From: Trichostrongylus colubriformis
Lineage: Eukaryota > Nematoda > Chromadorea > Rhabditida > Trichostrongylidae
NCBI GenBank assembly: GCA_963978905.1
Contig: OZ022256.1
Coordinates: 5,129,501-5,193,500 of the forward strand
DNA length: 64,000 nt
Reading direction: 5' to 3'
Shown: one piece after another, positions 1 through 61,071 of the stretch
Numbering within the stretch: position 1 is the stretch's first letter
Layout: every line of letters starts with the position of its first letter
Translations under genes and position numbers: made by a program
Notes under the pieces: generated by a model
Databases searched by the model: none
Seen by the model: only the letters and a program-made list of their open reading frames with translations
Told to the model about the DNA's origin: nothing

Positions 1-2267
1 AAAACCGGTACGACATCATCAATATTGCCTTATTACTGTGAATAAAAATATTTCCATGAGCGATGTCGAAGATCATAGCACATAGCCTCATGAATGATGT
101 ACTTGGAATTGATTTGAACGCATGTAAAACATGTACTTGTTCCAGGATGAAGGTTGCAAAACTGCTTCCGCGCCATCTCCAAAACCGGTACGACATCATC
201 AATATTGGCTTATTACTGTGAATAAAAATATTTCTATATGCGATGTCGAAGATCATAGCACATAGTCTCAAGAATCATGTAGTTGCAATGGATTTGCAAG
301 CATGTGAAACATGTGCTTGTTCCAGGATGAAGGTTGCAAGACTGCGTCCGCGCCATCTCCAAAACCGGTAGGACATCAGCAATATTGGCTTGTTACTGTG
401 AACAATTACTTCTATAAGCGATGTTGAAGATCATAGCACATAGTCTCAAGAATCATGTAGTTGCAATGGATTTGCAAGCATGTGAAACATGTACTTCTTG
501 TAGGATGAAGGGTGCAAGACTGCATTCGAGCCGACTCCAAAACCGGTACGACACCAATAATACTGGCTTGTTACAGTGGACAAAATTTTCTGTAAGCGAT
601 GACGAAGATCATCGCACATTGTCTCATGAATCATGTATATGAAATTGCTTTGTACGCACATGTGTTTTTGCAGGATGAAGGCTGTAAGACTGCATCCGCA
701 CCATCTCCGAAACCGGTACGACCCACTAATATTGGCTTACTATAGTAAACAAGATCTTCTACAAGCGATGTAGAAGATCATCGTACATAGTCTCATGAAT
801 CAGGAATTGATTTTTACGCATGTAACATGTACCTGTTCCAGGATGAAGGTTGTAAGACTGCATCCGCACCATCTCCGAAACCGGTACGACACCAGTAATA
901 TTGGCTCGTTACAGTGAACAAAATTTTTATAAGCGATGTAGAAGATCATCGCACATAGTCTCATAAATCATATACTTGGAATTGATTTGTACGCATGTAA
1001 AACATGTACCTGTTCCAGGATGAAGGTTGTAAGACTGCATTCGAGCCGACCCCGAAACCGGTATGAAATCAGTAACATTAGCTTGTTACAGTGAACAAAA
1101 TTTTTATAAGCGATGTAGAAGATCATCGCACATATTCTCATGAATCATATCCTTAGAATTGATTTTTACGCATGTAACATGTACCTGTTCCAGGATGAAG
1201 GTTGTAAGACTGCATCCGCACCATCTCCGAAACCGGTACGACACCAGTAATATTGGCTCGTTACAGTGAACAAAATTTTTATAAGCGATGTAGAAGATCA
1301 TCGCACATAGTCTCATGAATCAGGAACTGATTTGTACGCATGTGAAACATGTACTTGTTGCAGGATGAAGGATGCAAGACTGCATTCGAGCCGACCCCGA
1401 AACCGGTATGAAATCAGTAACATTAGCTTGTTACAGTGAACAAAATTTTCATAAGCGATGTAGAAGATCATCGCACATTGTCTCATGGATCATGTATATG
1501 AAATTGCTTTGTACGCACATGTGTTTTTGCAGGATGAAGGCTGCAAGACTGCATCCGCACCATCTCCGAAACCGGTACGACACCACTAATATTGGCTTAC
1601 TATAGTAAACAAGATCTTCTACAAGCGATGTAGAAGATCATCGTACGTAGTCTCATGAATCAGGAATTGATTTGTACCCATGTGAAACATGTACCTGTTC
1701 CAGGATGAAGGTTGTAAGACTGCATCCGCACCATCTCCGAAACCGGTACGGCACCAGTAATATTGGCTCGTTACAGTGAACAAAATTTTTATGAGCGATG
1801 TAGAAGATCATCGCACATAGTCTCATGAATCAGGAACTGATTTGTACGCATGTGAAACATGTACTTGTTGCAGGATGAAGGATGCAAAACTGCATTCGAG
1901 CCGACCCCGAAACCGGTATGAAATCAGTAACATTAGCTTGTTACAGTGAACAAAATTTTTATAAGCGATGTAGAAGATCATCGCACATAGTCTCATGAGT
2001 CATATACTTGGAATTGATTTTTACGCATGTAACATGTACCTGTTCCAGGATGAAGGTTGTAAGACTGCATCCGCACCATCTCCGAAACCGGTACGACACC
2101 AGTAATATTGGCTCGTTACAGTGAACAAAATTTTTATAAGCGATGTAGAAGATCATCGCACATTGTCTCATGGATCATATACTTGGAATTGATTTGTACG
2201 CATATAAAACATGTACCTTTTCCAGGATGAAGGTTGTAAGACTGCATTCGAGCCGACTCCGAAACCG
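1..2267 (+). CDS. Array A: 13 DEGCKTA-type 42-nt exons plus a partial exon
   Basis: Intact exons start at 146, 326, 504, 674, 842, 1019, 1194, 1364, 1533, 1704, 1874, 2049 and 2226, each 42 nt. Positions 1-7 are the last 7 nt of another. Two protein versions alternate irregularly: [14 protein letters not shown] (for example 326, 674, 1194) and [14 protein letters not shown] (504, 1019, 1364, 1874, 2226). Acceptors read ttgttccag or tttgcag and donors gtacga, gtatga or gtagga. Introns are about 126-138 nt, are themselves repeated, and carry a shared motif around gcgatgtagaagatcatcgc. All exons are phase 0. The exon alternation and roughly 855-bp spacing of matching exons (1019 to 1874, 1194 to 2049) point to duplication of blocks of five exons. 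Function unknown. Confidence 0.78.

Positions 2268-61071: not shown

Follow-up and report, generated by a model that had tools for sequence, protein, structure and literature searches.

What kind of gene, if any, is represented by a stretch of nematode DNA in which one short open segment, bordered by apparent splice sites, recurs along almost the entire length? This question is raised by a window of 64,000 nucleotides from Trichostrongylus colubriformis (contig OZ022256.1, positions 5,129,501 to 5,193,500), for which a first-pass annotation had proposed about 163 tandem 42-nt micro-exons between positions 146 and 60117. A position-weight scan of both strands detected 153 homologous 42-nt units, all of them on the + strand and located at 146-59970. 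The array of 42-nt exons and its start at 146 are therefore retained, but the count is 153 and the 42-nt units end at 59970, the exon at 60070-60117 being 48 nt long. A stricter scan, confined to the + strand and requiring AG-42 nt-GT/GC segments that agree with any of three consensus peptides in 7 or more of their 14 residues, yielded 148 units, to which the position-weight scan adds five further 42-nt copies. The lowest-scoring unit reached 36.7 bits, compared to -31.8 for the best minus-strand site and -44.3 for the best site in one shuffled sequence. A peptide-profile scan was concordant (lowest unit 23.1, best minus-strand site 3.8, best shuffled site 0.5), and neither of these two scans found a unit on the minus strand of the window. 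As claimed before, the units are exactly 42 nt long, in a single phase (0) and free of stops in frame 0 (153/153 in each case); the +1 frame contains stops in 26 and the +2 frame in 138 of the 153 units. That any exon can be skipped without a frameshift holds by arithmetic, since the units are 42 nt long and in phase 0. The AG and GT borders, previously ascribed to the units in general, are kept in 147 of them; five units (6570, 23352, 24220, 25090 and 57136) lack the acceptor AG, and the donor of a sixth (21074) is GC. Most unit-to-unit gaps (131/152) are shorter than 400 nt, and these span 90-205 nt with a median of 104 nt and 33 different lengths. The usual nematode donor is GTAAGT, from which the donors of the array depart: CCG/GTACGC or CCG/GTACGT is found in 79 of 147 units, as a general feature of the array and not confined to a few units.

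The units are arranged in nine blocks of 19, 20, 10, 36, 14, 10, 18, 15 and 11 units, eight of which are headed by a linker exon of 90 nt encoding a Thr-rich peptide of 30 residues or a variant of it. Neither these linkers nor the 147-nt exon described below figure in the first-pass annotation. For this linker the acceptor AAG/GATGAG was assumed; an in-frame TAG 15 nt upstream would extend it to 105 nt, and the linker peptide starts at D in both public gene models, GCK32_014137 and GCK32_003635. All units and exons listed in this paragraph and the next lie on the + strand. The first block is cut by the left window edge, where similar sequence is already present before its first units; it comprises 14 units of the DEGCKTA(S/F) type at 146-3327 (13 tightly spaced at 146-2267 and one at 3286) and five units at 6570-7281 that pass from a DEGC/DEEC to another 14-residue type, the unit at 6570 being without its 3' AG. 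The linker at 7898-7987 heads 20 units (8171-11119), beginning with EEECRTG in the first and LESCKTG in the last. The linker at 11626-11715 is followed by eight units at 11868-13356 (EEEC at 11868 and seven at 12393-13356), by a 147-nt exon at 14787-14933 and by two further units of 14 residues, a divergent one at 15624-15665 and a decayed one with the GC donor at 21074-21115. The 147-nt exon encodes 49 residues and is related to the sequence that follows the array in GCK32_003635 (22/33 identical). An uncertain additional exon at 15740-15832 (YKARNRTAF...) is contained in GCK32_014137 only.

The largest block, 36 units at 21739-26866, is headed by the linker at 21476-21565 and includes the units 23352, 24220 and 25090, in which the acceptor reads AT for AG. 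The linkers at 27379-27468, 34489-34578, 43223-43312, 47063-47152 and 55974-56063 head, respectively, 14 units in three runs (30436-33992), 10 units in two runs (34772-37675), 18 units in two runs (43496-46557), 15 units (47336-54047, with ten at 47336-48695 and five at 53388-54047) and 11 units (56241-59970), among them 57136 with its lost acceptor AG. Near the right end of the array, a 48-nt relative of 16 codons at 60070-60117, also present in GCK32_003635, is followed by a 108-nt relative of the linker (36 residues) at 60643-60750 and by a second 48-nt relative of 16 codons at 61024-61071 with the unusual donor GTTGGC, both absent from GCK32_003635. Since the frame of the latter remains open for nine more codons up to a TGA, this relative could serve as an alternative last exon. 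The candidate exons thus total 165, namely 153 units of 42 nt, two of 48 nt, eight linkers of 90 nt, one exon of 108 nt and one of 147 nt.

Whether these segments are exons was assessed by a comparison of paralogous copies. To this end, 115 segments consisting of an exon and its following intron were aligned (104 of them distinct); 37 of the 152 gaps, which are longer or lead to DEGC-type units, were omitted. Diversity averaged 0.102, 0.104 and 0.311 at the first, second and third codon positions, respectively, and 0.281 at intron sites, so that in this paralogue comparison the third positions are as variable as the introns and positions 1 and 2 are conserved. Omission of codon 4 lowers the diversities of the three codon positions to 0.059, 0.059 and 0.289 (permutation p = 6e-5). 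Across a sample of 3,000 pairs, no gap opening was observed over 126,000 aligned exon bases versus 7,342 over 296,173 intron bases, and diversity was only 0.00-0.02 at intron positions +1 and +2 (GT) and at the acceptor CA. Expected numbers of changes were derived by parsimony on a tree built from the introns alone (104 segments, intron rate): for 13 codons, 77 nonsynonymous changes were counted versus 202 expected and 114 synonymous changes versus 82 expected, and the units contain no stop, although the intron rate would give about 12.9. The exact figures are rough, since the copies recombine and are related by descent. Positive selection at residue 4 (Cys, Thr, Leu or Ile) was considered and rejected, as the excess of nonsynonymous changes (40 versus 15 expected) is accompanied by a likewise high number of synonymous ones (22 versus 7). 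The eight linker exons differ in the same direction as the units, with diversities of 0.068, 0.104 and 0.194 by codon position and no stops. Thus, given the conserved frame, the conserved splice sites and the codon-position signal, units and linkers are coding exons, spliced now or until recently, and the array is under selection at the protein level.

The array has grown by tandem amplification of exon-intron modules, and the introns were co-amplified with the symmetric phase-0 exons, as had been noted in the first-pass annotation. The amplification is documented by stretches that repeat with a period of 453 bp (98% matches) or 423 bp (90%). Alignments of 868-bp stretches gave a mixed picture, with 95% between 24220 and 25090 and a mere 70% between 23352 and 24220, and are not used as evidence for it. 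As the units 23352, 24220 and 25090 have the same acceptor change in a common flank, this change is most simply explained by a single mutation that was spread by duplication. Two of the six damaged units, 21074 and 57136, are also off the peptide consensus. Because the modules are in phase 0 and their exons divisible by three, duplication, deletion and loss of splice sites leave the reading frame intact.

Two predicted hypothetical proteins of T. colubriformis join such exons, in agreement with the earlier proposal of a Pro/Thr-rich repeat protein, which is better described as Pro/Thr/Glu-rich. The partial GCK32_014137 has 166 aa, 164 of which match joined window exons between 13336 and 22067, and the damaged unit at 21074 is left out of it. 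This match assigns the window to T. colubriformis or a very close species, by taxonomic lineage a strongyle nematode. GCK32_003635 (1302 aa) contains 15 in-frame units, as counted by eye, and one linker, followed by out-of-frame units, a peptide of 16 residues, sequence whose peptides were not found in the window, and an elongation-factor-G protein. Six peptides that are unique within the window (48654, 53697, 54006, 56856, 57000 and 60070) occur in this model in window order; it omits many window units and most linkers, and several units are out of frame. Its elongation-factor-G part likely belongs to an adjacent gene that was joined on during gene prediction, which would be an annotation or merge error. 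The gene itself runs on at least past the right end of the window and very probably also past the left end.

These two models were the sole matches in the protein searches, in which queries of 508, 233 and 1603 aa retrieved no relative outside T. colubriformis. The 233-aa query led to GCK32_014137 (168 candidates) and the 1603-aa query to GCK32_003635 (3563 candidates); the 508-aa query, made of selected units, found no relative among the 8000 candidates sharing most words with it, which were limited by length. Membership of the array in a known protein family was rejected, as the only Pfam match of the array segments was DUF7194 (E 0.085, below its cut-off) and the search of solved structures gave no match up to E 1. 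The segment of GCK32_003635 that follows the array had no Pfam match, no tRNA was detected in the window, no Rfam family reached its gathering score there, and a DNA pattern compared with the prokaryote and viral collections had no exact match. A full-text search of open-licence papers for six strings of the repeat peptide retrieved no paper, and searches of the open-licence literature for array plans gave no nematode array of this kind among the matches listed.

What would such exons encode? In the 147 intact units, Pro (20.7%), Thr (16.0%), Glu (14.1%) and Val (10.1%) prevail, the net charge is about -1 per unit, and there are 146 [ST]P sites, i.e. approximately one per unit. The 153 units represent 60 distinct peptides. 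The 14-residue repeat named in the first-pass annotation is indeed the commonest of these, but it is merely one of the 60 and accounts for 19 of the 153 units. The 137 units that have Gly at residue 7 are on average 82% identical in peptide sequence. Of the 153 units, 67 contain Cys, and a single Tyr residue occurs in one. The distribution of Cys follows the blocks: in all eight linker-headed blocks, residue 4 is Cys in both terminal units, whereas it is Thr, Leu or Ile in 80 of the 118 units between them, and Cys occupies this position in all units of the last block and in 16 of the 19 left-hand units.

We consider it likely, with a probability of roughly 0.6, that the window is part of a giant protein-coding gene in which about 150 spliced phase-0 exons specify an unfolded, PEVK-like spacer whose length evolves by duplication and loss of exons. 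Each 42-nt exon would contribute a Pro/Thr/Glu-rich segment of 14 residues, and each block would open with a Thr-rich linker exon and close with a Cys-bearing unit. The exons would mostly be spliced in order to give one long product, while unequal recombination between modules of about 146 bp, each comprising an exon plus an intron, would add or remove units and keep the frame. Judged by its composition, the Pro/Thr/Glu-rich chain is probably unfolded and might act, like the PEVK region of titin, as a spring or an extended spacer, with length presumably counting more than exact sequence, again as in titin. This view of the function and location of the predicted protein is read from composition, the ends of the gene lying outside the window.

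The statement that no gene of this plan has been described was too strong, since titin PEVK and the tandem-exon genes of schistosomes are similar. According to PMC6469411, titin has about 100 PEVK exons, with 113 annotated in human and 99 in mouse; these exons undergo duplication in the course of evolution, and the length and stiffness of the region are adjusted by splicing. The array is comparable in its many short exons that keep the frame if skipped (153 units of 42 nt in phase 0). As quoted in PMC6469411, the program PEVK_Finder applies a cut-off of at least 0.54 for the share of P+E+V+K (+A); the commonest unit, with P, E, V or K at 8 of 14 residues (0.57), lies above this value, and the 147 intact units pooled lie just under it (51.9%, or 53.6% with Ala). 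The array differs from titin in that its units are all 42 nt long, only Pro is commoner than Thr among their residues, and Cys occurs in 67 units. Cys is not known to be a feature of titin PEVK. Titin also carries Ig/FN3 domains and a kinase; in the present gene any folded domain, like any signal peptide, would lie outside the window. Tandem 81-base exons were reportedly found in Schistosoma mansoni by Davis et al. in 1988. The micro-exon genes of schistosomes, as described in PMC10526429, have a signal peptide, 10-20 very short exons (6-81 bp, mostly multiples of three) and introns that can approach 5 kb in length. Here too short exons in multiples of three occur in a parasitic worm, and units of 42 nt fit the size range; with the comparison made by description alone, the array differs in its 147 intact units and introns of mostly near 104 nt. 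The plan of the array thus appears to resemble titin PEVK and the schistosome tandem-exon genes and to be of a known kind, and the full-text search found the repeat itself in no paper. A giant ankyrin, which would also have ankyrin repeats and ZU5/UPA/death domains, was considered and dropped, because in C. elegans unc-44 and Drosophila Ank2 the tail repeats are described as encoded by very long exons, whereas each repeat of the array is its own exon and the introns show conserved splice borders and many indels.

A different function would be conceivable if the protein were extracellular. In a mucin-like or cuticle protein that is secreted or exposed at the surface, O-glycans would be attached to the Thr-rich linkers and the Cys residues at the block ends would be cross-linked to form a long filament. 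The Thr-rich linkers and the Cys-bearing first and last units of all eight linker-headed blocks are in line with this idea, and the nematode cuticle contains other disordered tandem-repeat proteins of variable repeat number, the epicuticlins (PMC9612446), which the array would resemble in its presumed disorder. However, the same article describes repeats of 49-51 residues within one exon and conserved Tyr motifs for Asu-epic-1; such GYR-type motifs are absent from the repeats of the array, with its one Tyr in 153 units. In addition, the likeness of the blocks (four were aligned) suggests that they were copied from one another, in which case the arrangement of Cys may have been inherited once and may not represent eight observations. 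An extracellular filament therefore seems possible but rather doubtful. Regarding the use of the exons, it could be argued, as in the first-pass annotation, that many of them are optional and that one gene yields very many products differing in length and sequence, comparable to what is discussed for the schistosome micro-exon genes. Any subset of the 153 units would stay in frame, and the damage to the splice sites of six units means that these are either left out or joined in another way. Optional exons often have weak donors, and 79 of 147 donors deviate from the usual sequence; these donors are however array-wide and not peculiar to a few units. Moreover, the units are so alike that skipping would alter mainly length and little of the sequence. 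Regulated or optional choice of exons is possible, but we regard a truly combinatorial array as unlikely. It also seems possible, though rather doubtful, that individual worms, tissues or stages use differing numbers of the about 150 interchangeable exons, whether through splicing, through alleles that differ in copy number or through the two together.

Two further explanations question the array itself. An assembler might have inflated or shuffled the number of units, and between common landmarks GCK32_003635 does join fewer units than the window contains. As a gene model, it may nevertheless skip units, or the contig underlying it may have been collapsed, and the copies in the window differ as real copies do (60 peptides, 33 short-intron lengths); an assembly artefact is therefore quite improbable. 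Still far less credible is a non-functional amplification, either a satellite that carries an exon by chance or a decaying gene. Open reading frames resembling transposase and reverse transcriptase lie between the units and six units are damaged, but the complete lack of stops and of exon length changes, the strong codon-position signal and the nonsynonymous deficit largely rule out a satellite or pseudogene. A giant gene for a PEVK-like spacer is thus the reading that we prefer.

The array offers a clean natural example of how exon-intron modules spread while the frame is protected, and it raises the question of how the spliceosome handles some 150 near-alike neighbours without mis-joining them. 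If the number of exons used were adjustable, one gene would set the length of a filament over a wide range at almost constant sequence. The intact repeat exons of the window alone (147), all of one length, outnumber the annotated PEVK exons of human titin (113; PMC6469411). Similar arrays could be missed elsewhere, since even here the sole long public model has units fused, left out or read in the wrong frame.

Several mobile-element remnants are interspersed between the units. Transposase remnants of the mariner/Tc1 type lie at 2677-3165 (+), 19665-19970 (+) and 57674-58027 (-). The first and the last of these match Transposase_1 above cut-off, the last also HTH_48 of Mos1, and 19665-19970 has a sub-threshold match to DDE_3. 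A reverse-transcriptase-like fragment at 4287-4709 (-) matches RVT_1 below the curated cut-off; the adjoining open reading frames 5323-5769 and 5624-5962 (-) had no Pfam match. An open frame of 244 codons at 31231-31962 (+) matches HTH_32 above cut-off and is probably transposon-derived. Two copies of another element between units (35951-36383 and 58984-59417) are 94.7% identical and, by eye, palindromic; this is perhaps a foldback or MITE-like transposon. Finally, a tandem element without any unit is located at 28430-29282 (5.8 copies), its period of 146 bp being about that of the exon array, and a further tandem element like it, also without a unit, was recognized by eye at about 61230-61760.
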